From assembly GCF_023721415.1 (NCBI RefSeq), contig NZ_JAMQVC010000001.1, forward strand, positions 1,054,001 to 1,118,000: a stretch of DNA of 64,000 bases, read 5' to 3'. The stretch comes from Galbibacter mesophilus. GTDB lineage: Bacteria; Bacteroidota; Bacteroidia; Flavobacteriales; Flavobacteriaceae. The translations under genes and the position numbers were made by a program. A model generated the notes under the pieces. It did not search any database. It was not told the DNA's origin and saw only the letters and a program-made list of their open reading frames with translations. The first letter of the stretch is position 1; each line of letters opens with the position of its first letter. Positions 20,460 through 61,487 of this stretch are shown one piece after another.

Positions 20460-21371
20460 CTAATCCTGTACAATAAAATCTTTAGCGTCTTCTTTATTAA
20501 ATTCGGGTTGAATATTTACGTGGTTAATACCAAATTTATCGTGCAAAACTGTTTCCACTTCAGCTAAAACTTCATTAAATTCACTTAAACTTATGTCTTT
20601 TTTAAAGTCCAAATGCGCTTCTAAATGAAGCTCTTCATCATTTAGACACCAAACATGAATATGGTGCAGTTTATTTACGGTGGGAATTTTATGCACTTCT
20701 TTCACCACTTCTTTAATATCTATTTCCGGAGGGGTAAAAAGCATCAACATTCTAGTGGAGTTCTTCAGCAAATCAAAACCAACGTATACCAAATACACCG
20801 CAATTAAAAAAGTAAGAACGCTATCTACCCAAAATAATTGGTAGAATTTCATTAGAAGTCCGCCAACCAATACCGCAATGCTCGCCAACATATCTGTTAA
20901 CAGATGTGCATAAGCCGATTTCATATTGATATTTTTCTTGGCATCGTTTTTCAGTAGAAAGACACTCAATCCGTTTGCCAAGATTCCAAATAGAGAAAGC
21001 CAAATAACCAATTCCGAAGCAATAGTTTGCGGATTGAAAAATCGTTTAATGGCTTCAATAATCAATAGAACTGCAATAACGATTAGCGTGGAAGCATTCA
21101 CAAAAGCAGCTATAAGTTCTGCCCTTTTATAGCCAAAAGTTTTATTGGTAGATGCTTTTTTTCCGCTCAATCGGTTGGCAATGTAACTTATAACCAACGA
21201 AATAACATCGGTTAGATTATGCAGTGCGTCGGAAAGCAATGCTAAACTACCTGATACCAATCCGCCAATAACTTGAGAAACGGTTATAAGAATATTTAGA
21301 ACAATGGAGATAAGTAAATTTGTTCCTTTTAAAGGGGTGTGGGAATGGTTGTGAGAATGAGAGTGGCCCAT
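20460..21371 (-). CDS. Cation diffusion facilitator (zinc-type metal exporter)
   Basis: 303 residues. A His-rich N terminus (MGHSHSHNHSHTPLKG) precedes six membrane helices. The CDF metal sites are visible as ALLSDALHNLTDV (helix 2) and AYAHLLTDMLASIAVL (helix 5), and the C-terminal cytosolic domain carries VNKLHHIHVWCLNDEELHLEAHL, characteristic of ZitB/CzcD-like exporters of zinc or similar metals by proton exchange. The frame is open 18 codons upstream, but ATG at 21369-21371 gives the expected start and sits one base after rpiB, so the two genes form an operon. Inner membrane. Confidence 0.93.
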   Translation of the reverse strand: MGHSHSHNHSHTPLKGTNLLISIVLNILITVSQVIGGLVSGSLALLSDALHNLTDVISLVISYIANRLSGKKASTNKTFGYKRAELIAAFVNASTLIVIAVLLIIEAIKRFFNPQTIASELVIWLSLFGILANGLSVFLLKNDAKKNINMKSAYAHLLTDMLASIAVLVGGLLMKFYQLFWVDSVLTFLIAVYLVYVGFDLLKNSTRMLMLFTPPEIDIKEVVKEVHKIPTVNKLHHIHVWCLNDEELHLEAHLDFKKDISLSEFNEVLAEVETVLHDKFGINHVNIQPEFNKEDAKDFIVQD

Positions 21372-21372
21372 A

Positions 21373-21807
21373 CTAACAGTGCAGCGGTATTTTACTAATT
21401 CGGTTTTGGTGTCTGCCACCCTCAAACTTAGTATTTAAAAATACTTCTACCATTTCTATTGCCTGTTCCACCGCTGTAAACCGAGCGGGAATACACAAAA
21501 TATTGGCGTTATTATGAGCACGAATAAGTGTCACAATTTCTTTACTCCAGCACAAACCTGCACGAACTTCTGGATATTTATTTGCTGTCATTGCAACGCC
21601 ATTTCCACTTCCGCAAATTAGAATTCCCAAATCTACTGTTTTCCCTGTTACTGCTTGCGCAACGGGATGTACAAAATCTGGGTAATCCACACTGGAAGAT
21701 TCGTCTGTACCGTGGTTAATAACTTCTATTCCCTTGTTTTTCAAGTATTCTGAAACCGCGAATTTATATTGTGTACCTGCGTGGTCGTTTCCTATAGCTA
21801 TTTTCAT
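21373..21807 (-). CDS. rpiB: Ribose-5-phosphate isomerase B
   Basis: 144 residues. IAIGNDHAGTQYKFAV at the start, GILICGSGNGVAMTANK around residue 65-80 (catalytic Cys in ICGSGNG) and NNANILCIPARF near 105 are family signatures. It interconverts ribose-5-phosphate and ribulose-5-phosphate. The frame is open upstream but ATG at 21805-21807 (MKIAIGNDH) is the family start. Ends with a short extra basic tail (RHQNRISKIPLHC). A -7 box TACCTTTG lies 22-29 bases upstream. First gene of an operon with the CDF exporter. It points away from the AT-rich candidate origin. Confidence 0.95.
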   Translation of the reverse strand: MKIAIGNDHAGTQYKFAVSEYLKNKGIEVINHGTDESSSVDYPDFVHPVAQAVTGKTVDLGILICGSGNGVAMTANKYPEVRAGLCWSKEIVTLIRAHNNANILCIPARFTAVEQAIEMVEVFLNTKFEGGRHQNRISKIPLHC

Positions 21808-21819
21808 TTTTTCGAGTTT

Positions 21820-22340
21820 TGTTGATAACAAAGGTACTAAATAGTAGATTTTATAATTATAAACACCATTGTTAATTTAATTTTACAATTACTTAATTTT
21901 CAGTTAATTATAAAAATCAATAAATTGTTGATATTTATATGCTTAATTCTATTAAAAAAATTTGGTTATATAAATCTGGGTATCAATTTGTAAAAATAAT
22001 TGGTTTTCGCAAGCAGTTTCTTTGCTTTTTAGTTTACATTTCATCAACCACTTTTCAACAGTTATCAACAGAAATTTTATAGGTGAATTATTAAATTTTT
22101 CCTGTTAGTTGAGTTGTTGACAACTGTGAAGAAAATCTTAAAATTTATTCTTTCTCAGTCATTTATATTTTTAATAACTGTTGATAGTTTTTTATAACTC
22201 CATTTATTTTAGGATAACTACTAAAGCGGAATAAACTTTTACCTACTATCAACACCCTATTATAATAATCAATTTTATTTTAAATTTTAAAAAAGAAAAA
22301 GATATATATGTTTATATAGTTAATAACTAAAATTTTTTAT
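21820..22340. other. Candidate chromosomal replication origin (oriC)
   Basis: A gene-free, very AT-rich stretch between the leftward rpiB operon and the rightward rnr gene. Seven 9-mers close to DnaA boxes occur: TTATCAACA (21820-21828 minus; 22062-22070 plus), ATATCAACA (21926-21934 minus), TTTTCAACA (22052-22060 plus), TTGTCAACA (22115-22123 minus) and CTATCAACA (22179-22187 minus; 22246-22254 plus). A run rich in TATATA follows at about 22300, a possible unwinding element. Clustering, AT content and divergence of flanking genes support an origin. The boxes share CAACA rather than the textbook CCACA, so the call is inference. Confidence 0.5.
21829..21836 (-). promoter_or_regulatory. -7 box for rpiB
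   Basis: TACCTTTG on the minus strand, 21 bases before the ATG, immediately next to a TTATCAACA motif (21820-21828). Confidence 0.5.
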
Positions 22341-22488
22341 TGAATTGAGTTGGATGTATGAGTCTAGAAATTTTGAAGGTTTTCTGGTTTGAAATTTTTT
22401 AGCCACGACCGATGCATGTCTCTTGGATGTAAGGTTTTGGGTGTTTTTTTTCAGGGTTAAAAACGAACTACTTTTCGCTCATACCTAA

Positions 22489-22731
22489 TTAAACAATTTT
22501 TAAATGCGAGTCTGGTTTATCGAGGTCTTTTATTACTTCTTTTACGTAGTTTGCGTATTCTTTGTGTACGTATAGTTTTATTCCGCCGATAGCATTGGAG
22601 TAAAATGGTGAAATTCCTATCATGGTTTCATTTTCAAAAAAGAAAGGAATGTCTTCATCTTTCAATAAAAACTTAAGTACCATATATTCATGCGAATAGG
22701 TGTATGTAGCAACCAGAACAAAATTTTTCAT
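22489..22731 (-). CDS. DUF2007 family protein
   Basis: 80 residues. The fold signature runs through FVLVATYTYSHEYMVLKFLL, where the residues VATY...E...LKFLL match the DUF2007 (putative signal-transducing) family, and then IGGIKLYVHKEYANYVKEVI. No membrane segment. Single small gene on the leftward strand between the candidate origin and a tiny membrane protein. Function unknown in the family. Confidence 0.8.
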   Translation of the reverse strand: MKNFVLVATYTYSHEYMVLKFLLKDEDIPFFFENETMIGISPFYSNAIGGIKLYVHKEYANYVKEVIKDLDKPDSHLKIV

Positions 22732-22793
22732 TCTGAAATGGATTAATTCGCTTAGAAAAGCGCGTTGTCAATAAAAATAGCTAAAATTTCTTT

Positions 22794-22970
22794 TTAAAGG
22801 AAGAAAAAAGATTTGAACCTATTGTATTTTTTAGAGTTCATTTCCATCGACTTGGCAGTTTCCGTTTTTTCTTTTTTCTCCAAAGAATAATCGATGTAGC
22901 TGGCAAAGGAAACCACTCCCAAAATAAATAGGAGAATAAAAAAAAGGACTATTTTATAAAACTTTTTCAA
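22794..22970 (-). CDS. Small membrane protein, about 58 residues
   Basis: A short leftward frame not tagged by a normal ATG: TTG at 22968-22970 begins KKFYKIVLFFILLFILGVVS, a lysine-rich start and one membrane helix, followed by a charged tail (SLEKKEKTETAKSMEMNSKK). A -7 box TATTTTTG lies 36-43 bases upstream (23006-23013 minus). The composition (basic start, one hydrophobic helix, charged tail) looks like a real single-pass protein. No family recognised. Confidence 0.5.
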   Translation of the reverse strand: MKKFYKIVLFFILLFILGVVSFASYIDYSLEKKEKTETAKSMEMNSKKYNRFKSFFFL

Positions 22971-23005
22971 TGTTATAATGTGTGCTACTTTCTTAATAGA
23001 CGATG

Positions 23006-23013
23006 CAAAAATA
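23006..23013 (-). promoter_or_regulatory. -7 box for the small membrane protein
   Basis: TATTTTTG on the minus strand fits TAnnTTTG, upstream of the frame starting at 22970. Confidence 0.4.
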
Positions 23014-23222
23014 CTATTGTTACAGATTATTTAATAAAATTTTAACTTTTTTAATTTCTACTGAAGCTATTTAGTAAACCAAATCATAATGTTCTAAATA
23101 ATAATACTTTATGAATTATTGAAATGAATATTTTTCAGAAATTGGTTAGAAGAATTTAGTAACACAAAATTAATTGGATAGGTAGTATAATAATTTGTAC
23201 TTTACTGGAAGAAATAAAATTT

Positions 23223-25412
23223 ATGACGAAAAGAAAAAAAAGAGCCCAAAAGCAACAGAAGAATGAGATTACAAAGGGCATTTTTACGGTATTGGAAAGT
23301 AACCGGGACCAGAGTTTTAACTACAAACAAATTGCTGCAAAACTGGATATAAAAGATACGAGTAGTAGGAATTTGTTGATTAAGAGATTAGGTCAACTTA
23401 AAGAAAAAAACAGAATAGAAGAAGTAGAAAGAGGAAAATACAAAGCTATAAAATCACAAAATTACTACGAAGGAGTAGTCGACATGACCGGTCGAAACAA
23501 TGCATACGTGATTTGTGATGAATTGGATAGTGATGTTTTCGTCCCGTTTAATTTATTGAATAAAGCGCTGCACGGTGATGTTGTAGAGGTATATGTTTTC
23601 CCTAGAAGACGTAGTGGTAAAAAGCTTGAAGGTGAAATTACGAAGATTATAGAGCGAAAGAAAACCGCTTTCGTTGGGATTGTTCAAATGCAAAAGAATT
23701 TCGCTTTTGTAAATCCGACTGATTTTAAAATGTACACCGATATTTTTGTTCCGAAGAATAAAATTGGTGATGCACAACATGGCGAAAAGGTGATTGTAGA
23801 AATACAAGATTGGCCTAAGAATGCAGATTCGCCTTACGGAAAAATAGTAAAAGTGTTGGGTGTTCCAGGTGAACACGATACCGAGATACATGCTATTTTA
23901 GCCGAATATGGCTTGCCATATAGTTTTCCTGAAGAGGTGGAACATTATGCCAATAAGCTCGATACATCCATAACCGAAGAGGAAATTGCCAAACGAAGGG
24001 ACATGCGGGATGTGCCTACATTTACCATAGACCCAAAAGATGCAAAGGATTTTGATGATGCGCTTTCCTTTCAAATCTTGGAAGATGGTAATTTTGAAGT
24101 AGGTATTCATATCGCTGATGTTTCACATTATGTAACTCCCGATTCTATTCTAGATGAAGAAGCCTATAATCGTGCTACTTCGGTGTATTTGGTAGATAGG
24201 GTAGTACCTATGTTACCGGAAATACTTTCCAACAATGCATGTTCCTTACGCCCGAACGAGGAGAAGTACACATTCTCTGCAGTGTTTAAAATGAACAAAG
24301 ATGCGCAGGTATTGGATCAATGGTTTGGTAGAACGGTTACGTATTCCGATAGACGCTTTGCTTATGAAGAAGCGCAAGCGATGATTGAAAATGAAAACAA
24401 TATAGTTCCGGAAGATGTTTCTCTTACAGGGAATACTTATGAAGTCGAACAGCACATTTCTGATGCCATAATTACTTTGGATAAAATGGCAAAGCTCATG
24501 CGCGCAAGAAGACTTGCAGCGGGTGCCATTTCTTTTGATAAAGTGGAGGTTAAATTTCAATTAAATGATAAAAATGAACCGATTGGGGTTTATTTTAAAA
24601 CCGCCAAAGATGCCAATAAACTCATTGAAGAATTTATGTTATTGGCCAACAAAAAGGTAGCGGAGTTTATCGGGAAGCAAAAGAAAACATTTGTTTACCG
24701 TGTACACGATGAACCGGATGAGGAAAAATTAATGCTATTACAGGGAGTTATATCCAAATTTGGTTATGGTATTAATATGAAGAGTAAAAAGACCATTACA
24801 AGCTCTTTAAATAGCTTATTGGAAGATGTTCAAGGAAGAAAAGAGCAAAATTTAGTAGATACTTTGACTATCCGGACCATGAGCAAAGCCATCTACACAA
24901 CAGATAATATTGGTCACTACGGATTAGGATTTGACTATTATACTCATTTTACCTCGCCCATTCGTCGTTATCCAGACGTTATGGTGCATCGTTTGTTACA
25001 GCATTATTTGGATAAAGGTGCTTCTGTAAGTGAAGAAAAATTTGAGGAGAAATGCAAACATTCTTCCAGCATGGAATATTTGGCTACTAGTGCAGAAAGG
25101 GATTCCATTAAGTACATGCAGATTAAATTTATGGAAGGTCGATACGATGAGGAGTTCTTGGGAGTTATTTCCGGTGTAACCGAATGGGGAATATATGTTG
25201 AGTTGGTTGAAAACAAATGCGAGGGAATGATTCGTACACGCGACATAAAAGATGATTATTATGTTTTTGATGAAAAGCAGTACGCTTTGGTTGGGGAAGT
25301 AACTAAAAACACTTATCAATTAGGGGATGAAGTCTTTGTAAAGTTGAAGAGTACAGATTTGGTAAAAAGACATTTGGATTTCGAATTAACTGGAAAGAAA
25401 GTCAACAGTTAG
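23223..25412 (+). CDS. rnr: Ribonuclease R
   Basis: 729 residues, a 3'-to-5' exoribonuclease that degrades structured RNA. A basic N terminus and helix-turn-helix domain (about 15-75) is followed by cold-shock OB domains (about 80-230), the catalytic RNB domain with TIDPKDAKDFDDALS at about 268-282 (the magnesium-binding aspartates) and the later THFTSPIRRYPDVMVHRLL, and a C-terminal S1 domain (about 645-725: GVISGVTEWGIYVELVENKCEG). Length is normal. No consensus -7 box was found upstream. It points away from the candidate origin. Cytosolic. Confidence 0.96.
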   Translation: MTKRKKRAQKQQKNEITKGIFTVLESNRDQSFNYKQIAAKLDIKDTSSRNLLIKRLGQLKEKNRIEEVERGKYKAIKSQNYYEGVVDMTGRNNAYVICDELDSDVFVPFNLLNKALHGDVVEVYVFPRRRSGKKLEGEITKIIERKKTAFVGIVQMQKNFAFVNPTDFKMYTDIFVPKNKIGDAQHGEKVIVEIQDWPKNADSPYGKIVKVLGVPGEHDTEIHAILAEYGLPYSFPEEVEHYANKLDTSITEEEIAKRRDMRDVPTFTIDPKDAKDFDDALSFQILEDGNFEVGIHIADVSHYVTPDSILDEEAYNRATSVYLVDRVVPMLPEILSNNACSLRPNEEKYTFSAVFKMNKDAQVLDQWFGRTVTYSDRRFAYEEAQAMIENENNIVPEDVSLTGNTYEVEQHISDAIITLDKMAKLMRARRLAAGAISFDKVEVKFQLNDKNEPIGVYFKTAKDANKLIEEFMLLANKKVAEFIGKQKKTFVYRVHDEPDEEKLMLLQGVISKFGYGINMKSKKTITSSLNSLLEDVQGRKEQNLVDTLTIRTMSKAIYTTDNIGHYGLGFDYYTHFTSPIRRYPDVMVHRLLQHYLDKGASVSEEKFEEKCKHSSSMEYLATSAERDSIKYMQIKFMEGRYDEEFLGVISGVTEWGIYVELVENKCEGMIRTRDIKDDYYVFDEKQYALVGEVTKNTYQLGDEVFVKLKSTDLVKRHLDFELTGKKVNS

Positions 25413-30764: not shown

Positions 30765-30788
30765 AAAGGGTTCCACGTGGAACCCTTT
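30765..30788. other. parS-like site, also a possible mnmG terminator
   Basis: A perfect 24-bp palindrome with core GGTTCCACGTGGAACC (30769-30784), matching the CACGTG-centred parS sites bound by ParB (textbook TGTTTCACGTGAAACA). It sits 24 bases after mnmG. It could also fold as a hairpin terminator for mnmG, as the following minus-strand sequence is A/T-rich. Confidence 0.6.
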
Positions 30789-30812: not shown

Positions 30813-32684
30813 TTATCTACCCATATAAACGAGCATAACACTAATATCGCTTGGAGAAACACCACTGATTCTTGAAGCTTGTGAAAGAGTTCTTGGTTTA
30901 ATTTTTCTTAGTTTCTCTGCCGCTTCAAAGGATAAAGATTTGAGTTTACTGTAATCGAAATTTTCTGGAATTTTAATTTCCTCTAGACGATTCAATTTAT
31001 CAGCATTGTTCTTTTCCTTTTCTATGTACCCAGAATATTTAACTTGTATCTCAGTTTGGTCCAAAACTTCTTGGTCTAATTCATTTTCTTGAATGTAAGT
31101 TTCTACCTCTTCAACTTGTCTTAAGTGTTCTAAAGTTACATTTGGACGGGCGAATATTTTGAACATTTTATCCGATTGTTTCATAGGTGCAGAATTAACT
31201 TCTTCTAAAATAGGATTAATTACTTCTGGTTTAACGCTCGTATCTTTAAAGAAATTTACAAATGCATTCGATAGATTTTCTTTCTCTTCCATCCTTTTCA
31301 ATTGCTCTTCCGTGGCTAGACCTATTTCAAAACTTTTTGGAGTAAGACGTAGATCGGCATTATCTTGTCGTAACAAGGTTCTGTACTCAGCACGGGAAGT
31401 AAACATTCTGTAAGGTTCTTCTGTTCCTTTTGTAATTAAATCATCAATTAAAACGCCAATGTAAGCTTCGTTTCTTTGTAGAATAAATGGATCTCTTTCC
31501 TGTACTTTTAAACTTGCATTGATTCCAGCCATTAAACCTTGAGATGCTGCTTCTTCATATCCAGTAGTTCCATTTATCTGACCAGCGAAATATAAACCTT
31601 CCACCAATTTCGTTTCAAGGGTATGTTTTAACTGCGTAGGAGGGAAGTAATCATATTCAATAGCGTAACCAGGTCTGAAGAATTTCACATTTTCAAAACC
31701 TGCTACAGATCGCAAAGCTTTAAATTGAACATCCTCTGGAAGGGAAGTAGAAAAACCATTTACATAATATTCAACCGTATCCCATCCCTCTGGTTCAACA
31801 AATATTTGATGTCTGTCTTTATCAGCAAACCTGTTAATTTTATCTTCAATGGAAGGGCAGTATCGCGGACCAATACTTTTTATTCTTCCATTGAACATTG
31901 GTGAACGGTCAAAACCTTCACGAAGTAAATCATGAACTTCATTACTGGTATAAGTCATATGACAATCCCGTTGATGATTTAACGGTTTTGTTTTGTCTGA
32001 ATATGAAAATTTCTCCGGTTTATCATCACCTGGTTGCACGGTCATTTTACTAAAATCCAATGAACGTCCATCTACTCTGGGTGGTGTTCCCGTTTTCATT
32101 CTTCCTGCTTCAAAACCACAATTAATTAAATCTTCGGTAATTCCAGTGGCTGCTCTTTCACCGGCACGGCCACCACCAAATTGCTTTTCACCAATATGTA
32201 TGAGTCCGTTTAAAAATGTTCCATTGGTAAGCACAACCGATTTACATTTAACTTCGATGCCTAAAGAGGTTCTAACCCCGGTTATTTTTCCGTCTTTTAT
32301 AACTAATCCAGAAACCATTTCTTGGTAAAAATCTAGATTTGGAGTCTGTTCTAACATGAGGCGCCATTCTTCTGCGAAACGCATTCGGTCACTTTGGGCC
32401 CTTGGCGACCACATTGCTGGACCTTTGGATTTGTTAAGCATCTTAAATTGAATAGCCGTTCTGTCAGTAACAATACCAGAATAGCCGCCCATGGCATCAA
32501 TTTCTCGAACTATTTGACCTTTTGCAATACCTCCCATGGCCGGATTGCACGACATTTGGGCTATATTTTGCAAATTCATTGTGATGAGTAGGGTAGAAGA
32601 ACCCATATTTGCAGCAGCAGCAGCAGCTTCAGATCCTGCATGTCCGCCTCCAACAACAATCACATCATATTCTTTATCAAACAT
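30813..32684 (-). CDS. mnmG: tRNA uridine-5-carboxymethylaminomethyl modification enzyme MnmG
   Basis: 623 residues. FAD-binding [14 protein letters not shown] at about 11-24, [19 protein letters not shown], a [13 protein letters not shown] motif, [21 protein letters not shown] (second FAD contact) and the C-terminal [29 protein letters not shown] tail are all characteristic of MnmG (GidA), which with MnmE modifies wobble uridine 34. Last gene of a leftward set (DUF4175, ybeY, mnmG). The name GidA comes from its origin-proximal location in many bacteria, which fits the parS-like sites on both sides. Cytosolic. Confidence 0.97.
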
Positions 32685-32872
32685 AAAAAATGGTTTTCTA
32701 TATTAATTTTTTTTGAGGGTTTTCAGTATCGACATCAAAAGCCGAATTGAGTTATTTATTAAAATTTACTATCGTGGAATATTACGACGTGGTAAGTTGG
32801 TTCCACGTGAAACAGCTTTCTTAAACCTCGCCGTTTCTAGGTTCTTTATGTAGAATAACCGAATGGAAAGAT
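32685..32872. other. mnmG-ybeY intergenic, with a parS-like site
   Basis: 188 bases without a gene; holds the parS-like palindrome at 32799-32814. No clear -7 box for mnmG is seen on the minus strand. Confidence 0.5.
32799..32814. other. parS-like site between ybeY and mnmG
   Basis: GGTTCCACGTGAAACA differs from the textbook parS TGTTTCACGTGAAACA at two positions (first base and the fifth). The right half is perfect. It is the second such site within 2.1 kb. Confidence 0.6.
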
Positions 32873-50479: not shown

Positions 50480-50540
50480 CACACATATTAAAACATAGCA
50501 AACAAAATTGAATAGTAACAAGTCCCCAAAGCTTAACACT

Positions 50541-53500
50541 ATGAAGAAAAACTACTTTACATTAAAATCATTCATCCTATTTGCGTGCATATTCTTTGCA
50601 GGCATTTCTGCGTTATCGGCGCAATTAGCGGTGCCTTTCTCTCCACGATTACCAGATGGTAGTATTCGAATAAAAGGGGATATTGTTCTCGTTGGAAATA
50701 ACATATTAAACCGAGCGCAACAAAACGACACAACTCAAGCAAATACTCCATACAATGGTAATGATAACAACAATAACCTTTGGATGGAATATATTGATAT
50801 TGATAATGATCCATCTACCTTTAGTTCTAGTAGCGCTGATTTGGAATTTCCACGTACGTGTGCCAAAATTGCCTATGCTGGGTTATATTGGGCATCTACC
50901 TATCCTAATGAAAGAAGTACAAATAAGGATGCTGCATTTGATGGAACACCGAGATACAGCTCTTGGAATCAAATAAAATTTAAATTGCCTGGTGGAAACT
51001 ATATAGACATAGTTGCGGATAACAATCCGGATCCAGAAGGAGAAGAAGACGATATTATTTTTGATGGTTATGATTATGACAACATTAATAATTCCTTTAA
51101 GGATTCTCCGGCAATTTGTTACAGAGATGTAACAGCTTTACTACAAACTTTACCTAATGCTCAAGGGACTTACACGGTTGCAAATATTAACGCTACAAGG
51201 GGAAGAAGAGTAGGGTCTAGTTCGGCGGGATGGATGCTAGTTATCATTTATGAAGATCCCTTAGAGCCAGGACGCTTTATTTCTACTTTTGATGGGTATG
51301 CTGGGGTACAGGGTAGTAATACTGCCGAAATTCCAGTACAAGGTTTTAGAACATTACCTCCTGGTTTTCCTGTTAATGCTAAATTAGGTGTAGGTGCTTT
51401 AGAAGGAGATGTAGGTATTAAGGGAGACCGACTTCAAATTAGATCGGATATTGCAGAAGCTAATGGAGATGGGTTCACAAATGTTACCAATGCTTTGAAT
51501 CCAGCGGATAACTTTTTTAATGCAACCATTACCAATGAAGGGCAACAGGTTTTAAACAGAAACCCGAATGGTACCAACACTTTGGGAGTGGATATTGATT
51601 TGGTTGACCTTAAGAATACAAATAACAAAATACTTCCAAATGATGAAACTGGGGCAACACTAAAACTTACCACCAGTGGAGATGGATATGGAGCTTTCTT
51701 TTCTTCTTTTTCCGTAGAGATTATTGAACCAATTATTCAAATTGCAAAGCAAGTAAAAGATGCTTCCAATGCAGTAGATATAGAAGGGGATCAAGTGGAG
51801 CTTGGTCAAACTATTAATTATATTTTGGAGTTTGATAACGTAGGTAATGACGATGGAACGCAATTTACCATTAGGGATATTCTACCTATTAATGTTGATT
51901 TAGATGATGTTTATTTCGACCCGAATCTCAATGGAGAAGTTACCTACACTCATGATCCAGCAACCAATGAAATTATATTCACTGTTCCCGATAAGTATGT
52001 AGAATTGGCAAGGGACAGCTATTGGATACGTATTGAAGTAACCGTACAACCTGATTGTGAAAAATTAAGGGATGCCTGTTCAGGAATCATACAGAATTTG
52101 GCATATGCAACATACCGAGGTGTTCTTAATGACACTGAAATTTCAGATGATCCAAGTTTTTATGGGTTTGATAACTGTAATTTCGGATTACCTGGATCTA
52201 CTAACTTTTTACCCAATTTGGATAGTTGTGGGGAATTTGAAAGAGTTCAGGAATTATGTGATGATACTGCTACGTTAACGGCTGGTTCAGGTTTCGACAG
52301 GTATCAGTGGTTCAAGGAGGATGCCGATGGAGAATTTATTAAACTAGATGGAGAAACTGGCCAAAGTTATGATGCAAACGATTTTGGTACTTATAAAGTA
52401 ATTAAACAATCTGATAAAGTTATTGTAGATCAGTTTGATCAAACGAGAAGCTTTGAATGTAAAGATTATGTTGAGATAATTACTTTACGTCAAAGAAATA
52501 CAGACCCTGAGAACCCCTTTATTTCGCAAGCTGATAAAAAGACCACCATCTGCCCTAATGATGGTTCAGTTCTTCCAGAGTTCTTCCTTTGTGGTGCAAA
52601 TGATGTAAGAAATTTAACGGTTAATTACAGTGGCATAAAATCTTTAGTGTGGGAAAAACTTGATGAAGGATGTGCAGACGAAGCCATTGAAAGTTGTCCA
52701 ACAAGAAGTAATAGTTGTACATGGAAACAAGTTGGAACCGGTAGTGCGTATAAGCTAGATGATAAAGGAGAGTATCGTTTGGTAGTAACCTATGAAGAAG
52801 GATGTTTTAATAGATTTCATTTTAAATCCTATCAAAACTCTGTATCTCCTGTCGCAGATGGCGAAGATATTTATTGTGAAACCCCAGGAAAAATAACTGT
52901 TTCGGGAGTAGGTTCTGCATATGAATTTGCTATAACGAATGACCCAGAAAATTTTGACAGAAGTTCTGCTAGCTGGACGGACAATAATGTTTTCGACAAT
53001 ATTACTACACCGGGAACTTATACGGTGTTTATTCAGCAAAAAAACATTTCCACAAATCCTCAGGACAGAAATCCTTGTTTATTTAAAACAGAAACGGTTC
53101 AAATTCAAGACCGTGAAATGGAATTGGTAGCTACTGAAATTAACAACCCTCGCTGTTTTGATGATAAGGGTTCTATAAGTGTTTCTGCTAATAATGTTAG
53201 ACCAGAATATACCTTCAACATTTATAGGGAAAACGATTTTACAAATAGAGTTAAATCGGAAATTAACACGAACGATAATTTTACAACGTTCACAGAATTA
53301 AACCCTGGAAAATATTCTATTACTGTTAGTTCTCAAGACCAATGTAAAGACACTATTAATGTTGAGCTAATTCGTCCCGAAAAACTAACCCTTAATGCAG
53401 AAGTTAAAAAAGATATAGCCTGTGACGATGGAATTATTGAACTAAATGCCGAAGGAGGTACACCAGATTATGATACATTTGCTGTATGGAAGTATACTGA

Positions 53501-56500
53501 TGCATCAGGAGTCGTACAAGTATCTTATGATATAAACGATCCTGTGGGAAGTTTACCTGAATCTGAATACAGGGACTTTGAGGACTCTGAACAAAATCCG
53601 ATTTCTATCAGTCCAGGAGAAGAAGGAACATATGAGTTTATAGTTTTCGATAAAAATAACTGCTTTGCGATTTCTCCTGCCGTTACCATAACCAACAATC
53701 CACCGGTTGATTGGACATTATCTGCGGATGACTTAAAATGTTTCCAATCTAATGATGGAGTAATAAAAGTAAACCATGGCGCACTAAATGGTTACGCATT
53801 AACATATGAACTTAAAAAACCAGATGGTACAATTGTAAATGATGGAGACGGGGAGTTCACCAGTCTTCCTGCTGGAAGAAATTATGTAGTAACCGTTACA
53901 CAGAATTTTGGAACAGAACAAGTTTGCGCAACAACAGATACCATTAGCCTTGCTGAACCAGATAGGTTAACGGCTTCAGCAGGTGTTTCTAAATTGCCTG
54001 GTTGTGATAGCTCGAACAACAAATTAGCTGAGGTAAGAATTACGAATCCACTTGGTGGAACACCTCCGTACGAGTATAGTTTTAGAGGCGGGGAATCGGG
54101 ATCATATAGTTCTTCTTCAACTGCTTTTTTAGAAGCTAACACGCATACATTATATATTAAAGATGCAGAAGGGTGTACTTACCAAATGGAAGTTACCATT
54201 CCTCCTTTACCAGAGGAACCAACTACCGAAGATTTAACCTATTCATACAATTGTGACGGTACTGGTAATATTCAATTGATTCCGAGTATTCCAGAATACA
54301 ATTATTCCTATGAAATAAATGGTGCGAGTTATTCAGGAGATACCCTCACAGTAGATGGATTATCGAATGGGTCTTATAAATTGGTTATAAATTATAACAA
54401 TCCAAATTACGTTACCTATTCCAATTTATTAAAAGAAGATTTTGGTCGTGGAGCAAATACTACGAGTCCGTACATAGATCCAGTATATTGTTATGAGTCT
54501 CAGTACAGTGGAGATTCAAGCACTTGCGATCCTAACGGCGAGTTCAATACTGATATTAACGATGGGGAATATTCCGTTACTTCAGAAATTACTACGAGTG
54601 TTGCTAATTTCTCGGGGTGGATTTCACCAAATGACCATACAGACCCTTCAGATGTTAACGGCCGATACATGGCCATTAATATTGGGGGAGTAGCTGGAAT
54701 TAACGGTGTTATCTTTAAAAAGAAAGTATTCGATGTTGTTCCAAATCAGGATATTAGTATTGAATTGGAGGCCTTCAACTTAATTAAAGAAGGAACGGTA
54801 AATAGGGACGATCCATTTTTGGTAATTCAATTGGTAGGAAACGATGGTAGTGTAATTACCCAAACCAGTACCGATAGAATACCACGACACATAGATGCAA
54901 ATAGTTGGCACAACTATGCAGTAGAATTGAACCCAGGTGCCAATACTGAATTAGATATTGTAATCCGCACCCAAAACGATGAGGTAAGCGGTAACGATAT
55001 TGCTATTGACGATATTTTGGCATACCAAATTCCTCAAATCTGCGACCTTACCAAAGAAATAGACATTGTTATTAATGGGGAAGCTTTTTCTGCTGAAAGA
55101 ACCGCAACGGGTACGGTTTCTTGTAATGGCGAAGACGATGGCAGCATTACATTTAGAGCTGAAAACTTTGATACTGCGCAAGGGTATCAATATTCCATAG
55201 ACAACAAAGTTAATTGGTCTGTAGTCCAAACTACTCCAACCGTAACTATTCCAGACTTAGCAGCTGGGACTTACACCGTTTGGGTACGGGACGTACGAGA
55301 CCAAAACGATCCATCCGCTTGTGAAGTTAGTTTCACTGCGGAAGTTACCGAGCCTGAAGCAGTTACAGTTAAAGCTAAAATAACAACGCCATTTTCTTGT
55401 AACAATATGGGAGCAACTATTGTAGCTGAGATAGCCCAAGGAGGAACATCTCCTTACGATTATCAGTTAGAAGACGAAGTGGGTAATGTAATTGCACCTT
55501 ACGATTTTGATGCCAACGGAGCAAATCGAACATTTAAAAACCTGCCAGCTGGAAAATATGTTGTTGCCGTAAGGGATGACAAAGATTGTTCGCAAGCAAA
55601 ATCGACGGTAATGGATGTGGTAGAGCCTAAAAATGTTACTTTCACAGCCTTACCTACCGATTGTTACAGTGGAAACAATGATGGGCAAATTGAAATTACC
55701 GCAACGGATGGAAATGGAGGCTACCAATTCCAAATAGATGGCGGTACTTGGCAAACTCCAAATCCAGCAAGTAACACTTTTACTTTTGATGGACTATCGG
55801 CTGGGACTTATAGCATCAACGTAAAAGATAAGTTGGGTTGTTCCGGAATGGCTATTTCGGTTACGATTGGTGGAAAGATTAATCCATCTGCTAAATTAGA
55901 TACTGATTTAACTTGCTTGGTAGATGCCCAAATAACCGTTTCTGCCACGGGAGGGGATGGAACTTACACCTACGCTTCAGGTACTTCAGATGCAGGACCT
56001 TTTACAGCAATGGCAAGCAATGTTTTTTCAACAGATACTGCTGGCACTTATTATTTTGAAGTCACAGACGGAAAAGGTTGTAAAGATGTCACTAAAGCTA
56101 TTACAGTAAATCCAGCAGATAATCCAGTGATAACGAGTGTAACTCCTACTGATATTTTATGTAATGGAAGCGAAACAGGTGAACTAGATATATTAATTGA
56201 TGAAACAGTTGGTTTAGCACCTTTTACCATAGAGATTTTTAATAATGATGGAACAGATAATCCTGGATCAATTTCTTACGGAAAGCAAACCACTAATTTA
56301 CCTGCTGGAGACTACGTTGTAGTAGTTACCGATGGTAAAGGTTGTGAGTCCGATCCTTATCCGGTGACTATCAATGAGCTTCCGGCAATTAATCCTAACG
56401 CTGTTAAAACAGATATAACATGTTCTGGAGATCCAATGATAGGAACGGTACTTGGAACAATTACTATAGATGCAACAGGAGGAACAGCACCTTATCAATA

Positions 56501-59500
56501 TTTTATAAAGAAAACAGATAATACTTTTTCAGATAGCTATAATGCAAGTGGACCTTCCTATTCTCATCCATTCACCGATTTGAAGTTTGGAGATTACGAA
56601 ATTAGAGTGGTAGATTCAGAGGGATGTGATAAAATTGAAAAAATTACGATTGCAAATCCACCAAACCTTATTTTATCTGCTTCAAGTATTGCTGGATGTT
56701 TACCGGGATCAGGACAATTAACCGTTGAAGCTAATACCACCAGTGGAGATTTAACCACAGGAAATTTCTATTTTGCAATATACACATCAACCTTGGCTCC
56801 TTTCGATCCTTCAGACCCAGATTGGCATGCTGCCACAGGAGATCCTAAAAGCCTAGGATTTAATACAGAATATACTTTTACAAATTTAGATCCAGGTGTA
56901 AAATACACGATTGTAGTTCATGACGCCGCTACTGGTTGTGAGTTTGTAGATGACGATATTGTGGTAGTGGATTCCGAATCAGACTTAATGGCAACATTAG
57001 ACGCTGAGTCAGATGTTACTTGTTTTGGAAGTAATGATGGAACGGTTACTTTTACAATAGATCCAGCGAGCACTGATGCTACATCTGTTAATTACGAAAT
57101 TTATAACAATAGCGAGTTTACAGGAATAGGCATTACCGGAACGGCAACTCCTGGAACAGTGGAAACGGCTACTGGAATTGCCCCTGGTCAATACTATATT
57201 TATTTTGAAGAAGTAGATGGTACTCATGTTGGTTGTAGGCAGGCATCAGATATTTTCTTAATTGAGGAAGCGCCTCAACTATTGGAATTAAAAGACCCTG
57301 TTGCAACAAATGATGACACTTGTAACGAGGATGGTACAGTAACGACTACTGCAAGATATGGAGCAGGTGGTTATTTATACCAAATTGAGAGTCAAGATGT
57401 TTCTACACCTGTTATACCAGATGCAACTACTTGGACGGGTACAAACACGTCGGGGTATTTCTCTAATCTTTCTGACGGTGATTACATTGTTTACGTTAAA
57501 GACATTAATAATTGTATTGTTTCAAAACCAATCACCGTCGGTCTTGACCCAGCACCAGTAATTACTGCAGCGATTGACGACAATTGTGCGGCAGAAGGCG
57601 AGTTTAGTGTAACGGTTACGCTTTCATCTCCTGGGATTCCGCCATATAGTATTAGTGTAGATGGTGGAGCTTATCAGAACATTGCTTTTGATAGTACAAC
57701 TAATGAATATCAAATAACAGGATTAAGTTCTGGATCGCACGACATAGTTGTGCAGGATCGGAACGGTTGTCCTTCCGGAACGGTAAATATTGATATTTAT
57801 CCTCCTTTAGAATTCAACGCTCAAATCACCAAATTACTCGATTGCCAGCCAGGAACCGCTGCAAACGCAGAAATTACCATTAAAAATTTGACAGGTTCTG
57901 GTAATTATGAATACGAAATTGACGGACCCGGCACTGTAGATCAAACTAGAACAGGACTTACTTTAACAGCTGGCGAGTTTGTTTGGACGGGTGCTAGTAT
58001 TGATGGACCTTATGTAATCACTATTTATGACATGGGTACGCCAGACGAATGTTCTAGACAAATTACTAGAACTGTATCTCAAGCTATTGAGCCAACCCTA
58101 ACTATCGACGATTTTGAGGATGTAAGTTGTTACAACGCTGCAAATGGAACTATTACCGTTTCTGCGGAAGACAACGGTTACGGTCCGTTTACATTCGAAA
58201 TCACAAGTGCTACAGATGCTAGTGTAACTACCCCTATTTTACCAATTGTGGAAGATGGTTACACTGCAACTTTTGAAAACTTAGCAGGCTCTGTAGCAGG
58301 AATCGATTATACCATAACAGTTACTTCTACTTCCAATAATTGTGAAGATGATATAGTTCAAAGAATTATACAACCAGAGGAAATTACTGGTTTGGATGCG
58401 ACAGTTACTGAATTTGCTTGTGCTGCTGGCACCAATTCCAGCCAAGTGGCTCGTGTTGATATCACGGGAACCGTAATTGGGGGTACAGTGGCTATAGCAG
58501 GGGATTATGTCTATGAATTTATCTACACGAATGGAAACCCTTCAGAAGATTATACCCAACGTTCAACAAGTACGGAATTCTTGGTTTCAAATCCAATTGG
58601 AGGAACGGTTACCATAAATGTTTATGATGACAATGGTTGTACGCCTGCCAGTATTACGAGAACCATCGAACCTTATGTTGGGTTGGAAGAGTTAAATACT
58701 TCGGTTATTCAACCTACTTGTAATGGTGCCGATGGTGAAATTACAGTGAACGCTACATTGGAGTCTCCAATTGGGGCAGCCACGTTTACCTATGTACTTC
58801 AAAAACCAGATGGTACTACAGAAACATCAGGATCGATTAATGCTGATACCTACACGTTCTCAGGATTAGATGTTGGAAGCTATGTGATTACAGTTACCAA
58901 TGATGCTACGAATTGTGAGCTAAAAACTTCTGCAGTACTTAACAATCCAAATACTTTCAAATTGGAGATTATTAAAGTACAAGATGTGGTTTGCCACGGA
59001 ACGGATACCGGAATTATAGATGTAAACCTAGTAGATGATGTATATACTGGTCCGTTTACTTGGACTATTTATAGAGCTTCGGATGATAGTTTGGTAAAAA
59101 CAGGAAATAATACCGACAATACTGGAATAAATTTGTTTGCTGGTGCGTATTATGTTGAAATTACTCAAACGGACACACCTTTCTGTACCAATAGAGGATT
59201 TTTCACGATTACGCAACCTCAAAATCCATTAGTGATAGATGCAGAAGTCTCCAAATTCATTTCTTGTACGGAATTGGGAGAAGTTACGGTGAGCGCCACA
59301 GGTGGTTACGGTTTCTATGAATTCGCTATGGTTCCGCAGGGACAAACACCAACGGATGCGCAGTATAGTGCTTCAAATACGGTATTTACAGACGTTTCAG
59401 CAGGAAGTTACGATGTTTATGTGCGTGATGAAGAAGGTTGTGACGAGATTTTTGAAACAGTTACACTTCAGCAACCAAATGATATAACTGCTTCAGCAAT

Positions 59501-61487
59501 ACAAGGAGATGTAATTTTATGTGAAGGTGATCCAACGGCTAGTATTTCAGTAGTAAACGTTACGGGAGGTAGACCAGAAATAGATCCTTCCTTAGATTAC
59601 TTGTATATTTTAAACAGATTGGATAGTAATGGAGTGATTGTCTCCAGTGCTGCTCCACAAACTACGGCGGTATTTACTAATCTTGCAGCTGGTCAGTACA
59701 GCGTAACCGTAACTGATAACTACGGTTGTAGTAGTGATACCAATCCAATAACAATTGGAGAACCCGATGAGGTCGTGGCTACGTTAAGTGTAGTTAAAAA
59801 CAACACTTGCGCTACTGGAGCACAAATAGAGTTAATTGCTAGCGGAGGTACAGAAACCGATTATGAGTACAGTACATCTCTCAGTGGTCCATGGACTCCT
59901 TTCGGAACCAATACCAACGATAATACAGTTACTATTGATGTTCCTGGCCCAGTGACTTCAGAAAGCACCTTCCAGTACTTTGTAAGGGATGCCAACTTGT
60001 GTGTATCCAAAGTTTCCAATTCAGTAACTATTCAACCGGTTCGTCCATTGGTAATAAGTCCGGATGTAGTTACTGATGTGAGCTGTTATGAAGATGCTAC
60101 TGGGTACATTAATGTAGATGTGACAGGTGGATTAGGAGACTATTTGTATTCTTTATATGATGTTTCAGGAACAAATGAAATTCGTCCGCAGCAAACAGAC
60201 AACACTTTTAACAGATTACCTGCCGGAGTGTATTTTGTTCAAGTAGACAGTAAAGATTGTTCGGAACAACTTCGTGTTGAAATCCTAGAAGGAATGGAAT
60301 TAACCTCTAAAGAGCCGGTTATTTATAATCCTATGTGCTCTGAGGATTTGGGTAGAATAGAATTGGAACTTCAAGGAGGTACAGGGGAATATCAATATGC
60401 GATTTCACCAAACTTAGATCAGTTCCAAAGCAAAAATGTATTTGAAGATCTAGAGCCTGGGAAATACACTATTATCGCTCAAGATTCCAAAGGTTGTAAC
60501 CCATTTGTTTACGAAAAAGATATTGTAGCTCCTAGTCCGCTTGCTGCAAAAGCCAGCGTAATGTCTCAGGAATATTGCGTGGGTGATAACACCGGTAGCT
60601 TTGAAGTTAACATAGCGGGAGGAACGGCTCCATATTCCACAGCTTTAAACACGCAAAACGATGCGGCTTTTGTGGAAGGAAGAACAACTTTCGATAATCT
60701 TAAAGGTGGTCAAACCTACGTTGTTTTTATTAAAGATGCCAACGGTTGTACTTCCAACGTAATTGTAACATTAGATGCGCCAGTAGATCTTGCTCCAAGA
60801 GCAGAAATAAACATGCTTTGTATTGATAACAGCGCAGCTAATGAAGTTGAAATAATGTTGGCTCAAGATTTAGATGATGTTATCTATTCTATAGACGGTG
60901 GTCCAGATCAATTTGAGAACAGATTTACCAACTTAGCTCCTGGAGACCATACGGTTACGGTTTCTTACTTCGGATGTCAAAGAACGGTGGACTTCACAAT
61001 TGATGCGATTGATCCATTAAACTTGGCGGTAGGCCAGAGTAATATCAATCAATTTACCATGGAGCCAACAGGAGGTGTGCCACCTTATCAATATTATGTA
61101 AATGATGAATCCCAAGGAAGCAATCCAACATACATCATTAGACGTAGCGGAATCTACGAAGTAAAGGTGATTGATGCGAATGGTTGTGAAGTGATAGCTC
61201 AAATAGAAATGGAATTTATTGATATCAATATCCCGAATGTATTTACACCGGATGGCGATAACAATAACGATACTTGGACACCAAAGAACACCTTGCATTT
61301 CCCAAATATTCTTACCAAAGTGTATGATCGCTACGGAAGACAGGTTGCAGAATTGAGAATTGGTGAAGAGTGGGATGGTCGCTACAATGGCGAGCAATTA
61401 CCAACAGGAGATTACTGGTATGTGGTGAAATTGAATGGAGAAGAAGACGATAGGGAATTTGTTGGTCATTTTACCTTGTATCGTTAA
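50541..61487 (+). CDS. sprB: SprB-like giant cell-surface gliding adhesin
   Basis: 3648 residues. Signal peptide (about 1-27, ISALSAQ). An N-terminal region (28-400) resembles DUF-type start domains of flavobacterial adhesins, then a DUF11-type domain (about 405-530: VELGQTINYILEFDNVGNDD). From about 860 to 3540 there are some 25 SprB-type repeats, recognised by D/Txxx-C-x-x-x..DGxI and Y-x-V-x-V-x-D..GC boxes. A lectin- or MAM-like module interrupts them at about 1295-1500. The C terminus (about 3563-3648: IPNVFTPDGDNNNDTWTPKN ...) is a type B sorting domain. ATG at 50541 is preferred over TTG at 50508. In Flavobacterium SprB moves along the cell surface to drive gliding. Confidence 0.92.
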   Translation: MKKNYFTLKSFILFACIFFAGISALSAQLAVPFSPRLPDGSIRIKGDIVLVGNNILNRAQQNDTTQANTPYNGNDNNNNLWMEYIDIDNDPSTFSSSSADLEFPRTCAKIAYAGLYWASTYPNERSTNKDAAFDGTPRYSSWNQIKFKLPGGNYIDIVADNNPDPEGEEDDIIFDGYDYDNINNSFKDSPAICYRDVTALLQTLPNAQGTYTVANINATRGRRVGSSSAGWMLVIIYEDPLEPGRFISTFDGYAGVQGSNTAEIPVQGFRTLPPGFPVNAKLGVGALEGDVGIKGDRLQIRSDIAEANGDGFTNVTNALNPADNFFNATITNEGQQVLNRNPNGTNTLGVDIDLVDLKNTNNKILPNDETGATLKLTTSGDGYGAFFSSFSVEIIEPIIQIAKQVKDASNAVDIEGDQVELGQTINYILEFDNVGNDDGTQFTIRDILPINVDLDDVYFDPNLNGEVTYTHDPATNEIIFTVPDKYVELARDSYWIRIEVTVQPDCEKLRDACSGIIQNLAYATYRGVLNDTEISDDPSFYGFDNCNFGLPGSTNFLPNLDSCGEFERVQELCDDTATLTAGSGFDRYQWFKEDADGEFIKLDGETGQSYDANDFGTYKVIKQSDKVIVDQFDQTRSFECKDYVEIITLRQRNTDPENPFISQADKKTTICPNDGSVLPEFFLCGANDVRNLTVNYSGIKSLVWEKLDEGCADEAIESCPTRSNSCTWKQVGTGSAYKLDDKGEYRLVVTYEEGCFNRFHFKSYQNSVSPVADGEDIYCETPGKITVSGVGSAYEFAITNDPENFDRSSASWTDNNVFDNITTPGTYTVFIQQKNISTNPQDRNPCLFKTETVQIQDREMELVATEINNPRCFDDKGSISVSANNVRPEYTFNIYRENDFTNRVKSEINTNDNFTTFTELNPGKYSITVSSQDQCKDTINVELIRPEKLTLNAEVKKDIACDDGIIELNAEGGTPDYDTFAVWKYTDASGVVQVSYDINDPVGSLPESEYRDFEDSEQNPISISPGEEGTYEFIVFDKNNCFAISPAVTITNNPPVDWTLSADDLKCFQSNDGVIKVNHGALNGYALTYELKKPDGTIVNDGDGEFTSLPAGRNYVVTVTQNFGTEQVCATTDTISLAEPDRLTASAGVSKLPGCDSSNNKLAEVRITNPLGGTPPYEYSFRGGESGSYSSSSTAFLEANTHTLYIKDAEGCTYQMEVTIPPLPEEPTTEDLTYSYNCDGTGNIQLIPSIPEYNYSYEINGASYSGDTLTVDGLSNGSYKLVINYNNPNYVTYSNLLKEDFGRGANTTSPYIDPVYCYESQYSGDSSTCDPNGEFNTDINDGEYSVTSEITTSVANFSGWISPNDHTDPSDVNGRYMAINIGGVAGINGVIFKKKVFDVVPNQDISIELEAFNLIKEGTVNRDDPFLVIQLVGNDGSVITQTSTDRIPRHIDANSWHNYAVELNPGANTELDIVIRTQNDEVSGNDIAIDDILAYQIPQICDLTKEIDIVINGEAFSAERTATGTVSCNGEDDGSITFRAENFDTAQGYQYSIDNKVNWSVVQTTPTVTIPDLAAGTYTVWVRDVRDQNDPSACEVSFTAEVTEPEAVTVKAKITTPFSCNNMGATIVAEIAQGGTSPYDYQLEDEVGNVIAPYDFDANGANRTFKNLPAGKYVVAVRDDKDCSQAKSTVMDVVEPKNVTFTALPTDCYSGNNDGQIEITATDGNGGYQFQIDGGTWQTPNPASNTFTFDGLSAGTYSINVKDKLGCSGMAISVTIGGKINPSAKLDTDLTCLVDAQITVSATGGDGTYTYASGTSDAGPFTAMASNVFSTDTAGTYYFEVTDGKGCKDVTKAITVNPADNPVITSVTPTDILCNGSETGELDILIDETVGLAPFTIEIFNNDGTDNPGSISYGKQTTNLPAGDYVVVVTDGKGCESDPYPVTINELPAINPNAVKTDITCSGDPMIGTVLGTITIDATGGTAPYQYFIKKTDNTFSDSYNASGPSYSHPFTDLKFGDYEIRVVDSEGCDKIEKITIANPPNLILSASSIAGCLPGSGQLTVEANTTSGDLTTGNFYFAIYTSTLAPFDPSDPDWHAATGDPKSLGFNTEYTFTNLDPGVKYTIVVHDAATGCEFVDDDIVVVDSESDLMATLDAESDVTCFGSNDGTVTFTIDPASTDATSVNYEIYNNSEFTGIGITGTATPGTVETATGIAPGQYYIYFEEVDGTHVGCRQASDIFLIEEAPQLLELKDPVATNDDTCNEDGTVTTTARYGAGGYLYQIESQDVSTPVIPDATTWTGTNTSGYFSNLSDGDYIVYVKDINNCIVSKPITVGLDPAPVITAAIDDNCAAEGEFSVTVTLSSPGIPPYSISVDGGAYQNIAFDSTTNEYQITGLSSGSHDIVVQDRNGCPSGTVNIDIYPPLEFNAQITKLLDCQPGTAANAEITIKNLTGSGNYEYEIDGPGTVDQTRTGLTLTAGEFVWTGASIDGPYVITIYDMGTPDECSRQITRTVSQAIEPTLTIDDFEDVSCYNAANGTITVSAEDNGYGPFTFEITSATDASVTTPILPIVEDGYTATFENLAGSVAGIDYTITVTSTSNNCEDDIVQRIIQPEEITGLDATVTEFACAAGTNSSQVARVDITGTVIGGTVAIAGDYVYEFIYTNGNPSEDYTQRSTSTEFLVSNPIGGTVTINVYDDNGCTPASITRTIEPYVGLEELNTSVIQPTCNGADGEITVNATLESPIGAATFTYVLQKPDGTTETSGSINADTYTFSGLDVGSYVITVTNDATNCELKTSAVLNNPNTFKLEIIKVQDVVCHGTDTGIIDVNLVDDVYTGPFTWTIYRASDDSLVKTGNNTDNTGINLFAGAYYVEITQTDTPFCTNRGFFTITQPQNPLVIDAEVSKFISCTELGEVTVSATGGYGFYEFAMVPQGQTPTDAQYSASNTVFTDVSAGSYDVYVRDEEGCDEIFETVTLQQPNDITASAIQGDVILCEGDPTASISVVNVTGGRPEIDPSLDYLYILNRLDSNGVIVSSAAPQTTAVFTNLAAGQYSVTVTDNYGCSSDTNPITIGEPDEVVATLSVVKNNTCATGAQIELIASGGTETDYEYSTSLSGPWTPFGTNTNDNTVTIDVPGPVTSESTFQYFVRDANLCVSKVSNSVTIQPVRPLVISPDVVTDVSCYEDATGYINVDVTGGLGDYLYSLYDVSGTNEIRPQQTDNTFNRLPAGVYFVQVDSKDCSEQLRVEILEGMELTSKEPVIYNPMCSEDLGRIELELQGGTGEYQYAISPNLDQFQSKNVFEDLEPGKYTIIAQDSKGCNPFVYEKDIVAPSPLAAKASVMSQEYCVGDNTGSFEVNIAGGTAPYSTALNTQNDAAFVEGRTTFDNLKGGQTYVVFIKDANGCTSNVIVTLDAPVDLAPRAEINMLCIDNSAANEVEIMLAQDLDDVIYSIDGGPDQFENRFTNLAPGDHTVTVSYFGCQRTVDFTIDAIDPLNLAVGQSNINQFTMEPTGGVPPYQYYVNDESQGSNPTYIIRRSGIYEVKVIDANGCEVIAQIEMEFIDINIPNVFTPDGDNNNDTWTPKNTLHFPNILTKVYDRYGRQVAELRIGEEWDGRYNGEQLPTGDYWYVVKLNGEEDDREFVGHFTLYR

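Follow-up and report, generated by a model that had tools for sequence, protein, structure and literature searches.

The intergenic gap at positions 21808–22488 of the window, with its core at about 22237–22327, is very probably the chromosomal replication origin (oriC) of this genome. The window is the whole 64-kb stretch of DNA that was analysed (64,000 nucleotides, C1:1054001–1118000), from a 3.77-Mb genome in 8 contigs. An oriC had been proposed here in the preliminary description, and the proposal is supported by a cluster of DnaA-box-like sites beyond chance, by a switch of strand asymmetry in pooled data, by an AT-rich element beside a box, and by a core sequence that is conserved together with the gene order. 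Two features that are common at origins, but not defining, are absent: the exact canonical box TTATCCACA has no occurrence in the 64-kb window, and dnaA, said from the start not to be adjacent, is found on another contig (C3:138257).

The gap is bordered by rpiB on the left and faces rnr on the right (Table 1). These two genes diverge from it, as had been stated, but an open reading frame of 80 residues lies between them and points toward the AT-rich stretch. Of 80 relative loci, 14 gave a homologue of this frame (tblastn, E 1e-3). The rnr protein is 88–90% identical to its homologues in three Galbibacter and one Joostella, which places the genome in the Flavobacteriaceae. A search of positions 21300–23300 against Rfam gave no match at the gathering score. 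Elsewhere in the window, positions 50508–61487 hold a repeat-rich open reading frame of 3659 residues after two other large ones, and its C-terminal stretch resembles, by eye, gliding-motility-associated secreted proteins.

Table 1. Features of the rpiB–rnr gap and of the mnmG neighbourhood, in window positions
Feature	Position	Strand	Basis or remark
rpiB, left flank	21373–21807	-	Pfam LacAB_rpiB, 3.5e-56
Box-like TTATCAACA	21820–21828	-	Overlaps rpiB promoter region; lacks conservation across the four closest aligned relatives
Probable rpiB promoter -7 element TACCTTTG	21829–21836	-	ACAAAGGTA in 39/77 gaps, adjoining the rpiB start in many
DnaA-box-like ATATCAACA	21926–21934	-	Identical in the window and 4 aligned close relatives
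Tandem boxes TTTTCAACA-G-TTATCAACA	22052–22070	+	Second box is TTATTAACA in 3/4 close relatives
Palindromic double box GTTGTTGACAACTGT...	22113–22132	+	133 nt upstream of core; includes minus-strand box 22115–22123
Box CTATCAACA	22179–22187	-	Motif scan, alignment
Degenerate box just 5' of core box	22237–22245	+	TTAT in 76–94% of 62 non-redundant sites
Putative core DnaA box CTATCAACA	22246–22254	+	Consensus scoring of gaps
3-nt periodic element CTATTATAATAATCAA (family consensus CTATNATAANCAYCAT)	22257–22272	+	A every third base, 90–100% of 62 sites
Putative A/T-rich unwinding element	22273–22317	.	Low-stability stretch
Inverted box TTATTAACT, closes core	22318–22326	-	TTATCAACA in many relatives
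80-aa open reading frame	22489–22731	-	Without Pfam match
rnr (ribonuclease R), right flank	23223–25412	+	Pfam RNB, 4.5e-110
parS-like GGTTCCACGTGGAACC	30769–30784 (C1:1084769)	.	Downstream of mnmG; 2 mismatches
mnmG/gidA, rival origin marker	30813–32684	-	Flanked by the two parS-like sites
parS-like GGTTCCACGTGAAACA	32799–32814	.	Upstream of mnmG; 2 mismatches

The seven 9-mers on both strands that had been pointed out in the gene-free, AT-rich gap were recovered as seven HTDTCAACA matches at 21820–22254, two of them exact copies of TTATCAACA (21820, minus strand; 22062, plus strand). They are 7 of the 19 matches in the whole window, where 9.75 are expected. When 21808–22488 was shuffled with its dinucleotides preserved, the mean was 0.15 matches and the maximum 2, and none of 1000 shuffles reached seven. 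Allowing up to one mismatch to TTATCAACA gave eight sites (shuffle mean 0.6, maximum 4; at least eight in 0 of 1000), and the next densest separate 600-bp cluster of the window has three one-mismatch sites. In regions of 200–280 kb from each of eight genomes, the densest 500-bp cluster of one-mismatch sites is the gap in seven. Exact TTATCAACA by itself is poor evidence of an origin, since the genome has 123 copies. The palindromic double box scores at least 15 in 37 of 96 gaps, compared with 1 of 300 random stretches, and lies 131–135 nt upstream of the core in 16 of those 37. Over 804 kb of the genome, the only comparable cluster of boxes was found at about 14.7 kb of C1 (7 per 500 bp). It was rejected as a second origin-like array, as it sits in direct repeats spaced 270–276 bp. 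Fifteen direct repeats, mostly with this spacing, occupy C1:14000–19000 (L002) and give rise to the false cluster.

Part of the gap is likely to serve transcription. The element TACCTTTG matches what we take to be the -7 promoter motif of Bacteroidota, TAnnTTTG, and judging from its sequence it is probably an rpiB promoter element; the overlapping box at 21820 probably falls outside the core origin. The sequence TGTTGATAACAAAGGTACTAAATAGTAG next to rpiB was considered as a basal unwinding system and rejected: what is conserved there is TACCTTTG, read on the rpiB strand and fitting the -7 motif, and the local box is not conserved. The putative promoter, and the box that overlaps it, would suit a gap that is altogether an rpiB/rnr regulatory region, with the TCAACA sequences either bound by transcription factors or arising by chance in AT-rich DNA; sigma-70-like matches number 14 against a shuffle mean of 10.5, which is no notable excess. 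Such a reading is extremely unlikely given that no shuffle attained the box count, that the core, both here and in many relatives, stands about 430 nt away from rpiB, and that the pooled skew described below switches at the gap.

The core of the proposed origin has the layout TTATNAACA-NN-CTATNATAANCATCAT, then A/T-rich DNA, then the inverted box. The consensus was composed after inspection of six gaps and the window, all of which are among the 96 gaps scored (one duplicate genome was left out). With a threshold of at least 17 matches out of 22, the core was found in 89 of the 96 gaps; among 300 random stretches of 700 bp one reached it, as did one of the 96 gaps after shuffling. The best match has one orientation in 96/96. 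The other seven gaps score 14–16 (L026, L059, L031, L041 with masked bases, L075, L033 and L035). The core at the gap is the best site of the 200–280-kb region in seven of eight genomes; in the remaining one, G002, the gap contains masked bases. In this genome it scores 19, against a best of 17 in the other 620 kb sampled. Over 62 non-redundant sites, the core box is mostly [C/A/T]TAT[T/C]AACA, with A in 94% and C in 6% at position 6. The frequencies of the periodic A are 1.00, 0.98, 0.90, 0.97 and 0.97, and the DNA that follows is nearly free of C. The lowest stability of any 60-bp stretch in the window is that of 22258–22317, with a nearest-neighbour value of -55.8 kcal/mol compared with a mean of -76.0 kcal/mol.

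Conservation in relatives, which had been put forward as a check, is borne out by the gene order and the boxes as well as by this longer core. Eighty rnr loci were collected from named genomes, four of which end before rpiB is visible; the remaining 76, which could be tested, all have rpiB divergent from rnr. An order-wide search supplied 20 more genomes of the family, and every one has this arrangement (one of these, G094, is apparently the same genome as G012). TTATCAACA or its complement occurs in 55 of 77 gaps, where about 3 occurrences are expected. Other families of the order contributed 29 loci, none of which has a divergent rpiB within the 1.5 kb examined upstream of rnr. In six loci of family f4 (L239, L240, L241, L244, L247 and L248) and one of family f8, rpiB precedes rnr in the same direction. 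In the same 29 loci, the core was scored at 17–18 out of 22 in three (L231, L242 and L249), which is near background, and was not found in the rest.

The strand asymmetry was examined at several scales. Twenty 20-kb samples of C1 were compared. Of the 12 that precede 1.0 Mb, 11 have negative skew; the sample at 1.02 Mb is near zero; and of the 7 beyond the window, 5 are positive. The preliminary description expected the minimum of the cumulative skew at the gap. The raw curve of this genome over ±100 kb fails in this respect: it has a wide trough between about -28 and +20 kb in window coordinates and is lowest at -25.6 kb. Raw cumulative skew of a single genome was discarded as a locator, being too noisy with strong coding-strand effects. 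The position of rRNA genes was also discarded as a marker, the single 16S match being on contig C7. To correct for coding strand, the skew was taken at fourfold sites, and open reading frames of the plus and of the minus strand were each given a fitted level of their own. For this genome alone, the best change-point was then 12–24 kb left of the gap. It was at C1:1052000 when distant samples were included (gap 4.0 and mnmG 10.2 log-likelihood units worse). With the fit confined to ±122 kb, it lay 12 kb to the left of the gap, the gap itself being 0.9 units worse and mnmG 5.0 units worse.

The corrected skew was pooled from eight genomes oriented on rnr, and here the switch does fall at the gap. 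The best position was 0 in all five spans and in all eight leave-one-out runs, with single-genome optima at -12, +16, +2, +12, +22, 0, +26 and 0 kb. A block bootstrap of the pooled change-point gave a median of 0 and a 95% interval of -4 to +4 kb, and was preferred to the likelihood differences, which overstate certainty because of the kinship among the eight genomes and the non-independence of sites in the same gene. In the complete Maribacter halichondriae record (G001:C1, L093), which starts at dnaA (DnaA pattern at 1321), the skew switches at about 1.85–1.86 Mb; the first base of a record is not necessarily at the origin.

The gene mnmG lies about 10–46 kb from the gap in the eight genomes measured. 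An origin adjoining it (about 30.7–32.9 kb of the window) was weighed, the boxes between rpiB and rnr being then an auxiliary DnaA-binding or titration site. By comparison with what we take to be the parS consensus, a pair of parS-like sites flanks mnmG in this genome (G000). Such sites adjoin the gene in G001, G002 and G003 as well, and therefore mnmG marks the neighbourhood of the origin; within it, the gap is what the core and the pooled skew point to. Several relatives have perfect TGTTCCACGTGGAACA sites in pairs, with about 2 kb between the two. In two published descriptions, of Mariniflexile litorale (PMC11278836) and Algorimicrobium (PMC12843772), oriC was placed at mnmG by Ori-Finder 2022 with GC skew said to agree; the legend of Figure 3 of PMC11278836 labels mnmG as ter, contradicting the text of that paper. 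The corrected skew of G003, with its optimum at +26 kb, slightly favours mnmG, by 2.1 units (-1.5 versus -3.6). Against these points, the gap fits the skew better in all six genomes in which mnmG is 34–46 kb away (G001, G002, G004, G005, G009 and G012; in G001 by only 1.6 units), and it was ahead of +34 kb in 200 of 200 bootstraps. The window has no dense box cluster at mnmG, and its least stable stretch falls in the gap. An origin at mnmG itself is on this evidence very unlikely. Among the matches listed in a search of mainly the open literature (DoriC being outside its scope), no Flavobacteriaceae oriC at rpiB–rnr was seen, nor TTATCAACA as its DnaA box.

The boxes of the gap have the form TTWTNAACA, compared with TTWTNCACA in E. 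coli, which amounts to a change of C to A at position 6. The CAACA ending had been suspected to be a local variant, and this is borne out by 76 relatives, in whose gaps TCAACA-type boxes are 9.7-fold denser than in the flanks, compared with 1.0-fold for TCCACA, 2.0-fold for TCGACA and 1.4-fold for TCTACA. The genome encodes one, complete DnaA. In a gapless alignment with the E. coli protein (1j1v), RDHATV replaces RDHTTV, which is T435A counted from R399, and SLASIG replaces SLPEIG, which is P423A; both replacements are in domain IV. In the portions of the literature that bear on these residues, the helix from residue 434 is described as reading TnCACA, with T435M defective (PMC5742627), the contacts listed are R399, P423, D433, H434, T435 and H439 (PMC7561715), and position 435 is among those that vary between classes (PMC5043019). 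From the sequences, the change at box position 6 is perhaps matched to the replacement of Thr435 and of Pro423 by Ala.

The distribution of Ala435 was followed through codon patterns. In a 99-genome sample of the phylum, comparison of positions put the exact RDHATV pattern inside dnaA for 8 of the 9 genomes of the family and for none of the 90 others. The pattern DHATV-x-HA was found in 38 of 39 family genomes (37 of 38 if G012 and G094 are the same) and in none of six f4 genomes, family membership being that of the tool assignment or the record name. A pattern for Thr or Ser (TCN) at 435 occurred in none of 45 genomes, including seven negative for the Ala435 pattern; a missing Ala435 pattern says nothing about the residue present, as Ala in another sequence context is possible. 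The 37 distinct pattern-positive genomes have 94 CAACA-type and 5 CCACA-type boxes, CAACA leading in 34, with a tie in G089 and the reverse in G079 and G128. The sole family genome without the pattern, G052, has no CAACA-type and five CCACA-type boxes. In the 1.4 kb upstream of rnr in family f4, exact TTATCCACA is present in five of six loci and exact TTATCAACA in the sixth, with neither in the last 460 nt upstream of rnr.

Ala435 does not force an A at position 6, because two of the 37 genomes favour CCACA, one ties, and the core box of G017 has TTCACA. The link between Ala435 and CAACA is thus a correlation at the level of the family, drawn from sequence comparison with one within-family contrast, and not proof of cause. 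The three exceptional Ala435 genomes, with CCACA at least equal to CAACA, and the AT-richness of the gaps would be accounted for if the gap were oriC and DnaA preferred the canonical CCACA even so, the CAACA excess being a by-product of AT pressure. This is rather unlikely in view of the contrast between the 9.7-fold density of TCAACA and those of the three other types, of the A in nearly all core boxes, and of the gap of G052, which is similarly AT-rich (0.76) and carries CCACA-type boxes. It is possible, if slightly less probable than its contrary, that the Flavobacteriaceae have rewritten the code between initiator and origin: the Thr435 contact would have been lost to Ala, with Pro423 likewise replaced by Ala in this genome, the boxes changed from TTWTNCACA to TTWTNAACA, and a trio-like array acquired with a different invariant base. 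G052, with its C-type boxes, would in that case let the switch be traced on a tree, and a causal link between residue and box would make this a natural change of initiator specificity.

We infer the following course of events. DnaA, encoded elsewhere, would bind the array of family-specific TTWTNAACA boxes, and the tandem pair at 22237–22254 would direct it over the periodic element. The adjoining A/T stretch would open and the helicase would be loaded there, so that two forks would leave past rpiB and rnr. The parS-like sites around mnmG, 9–11 kb away, would serve segregation. Taken this way, the analysis provides a large family, for which two recent papers adopted software predictions at mnmG, with a probable origin and with a core motif that can be searched for.

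DnaA-dependent origins of the E. coli, B. subtilis and H. pylori types are intergenic and have 9-bp boxes on both strands, an AT-rich neighbour and a skew switch. The gap resembles them in its two-strand box cluster, the adjacent AT-rich DNA, the skew switch and its intergenic place; it differs in lying away from dnaA, between divergent rpiB and rnr, and in its box, TTWTNAACA instead of TTWTNCACA. As with the basal unwinding system (BUS) with DnaA-trios outlined in the relevant part of PMC8287927, it has tandem boxes, a short spacer, a 3-nt periodic element and then A/T DNA, and its first triplet reads 3'-GAT-5' on the complement. The later triplets keep a T at their third position (3'-NNT-5'), where the trios in that account have a middle A. 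A BUS calls for a box or tandem boxes no more than 16 bp from at least three 3'-NAN-5' triplets. The periodic element begins 2 nt after the core box and its invariant T is at place 3, while AT-rich DNA readily satisfies 3'-NAN-5'. The core appears to follow the BUS layout, and is not called a member because the invariant base differs. The Ori-Finder calls at mnmG cited above, for Mariniflexile litorale and Algorimicrobium (PMC11278836, PMC12843772), concern the same family and seemingly the same chromosomal neighbourhood, whereas the pooled skew and the boxes of the eight genomes used here, which are of other species, favour the gap. Set beside these systems, the gap is probably an ordinary chromosomal origin in a place unreported among the papers listed, with a variant box and a probable change in the initiator.
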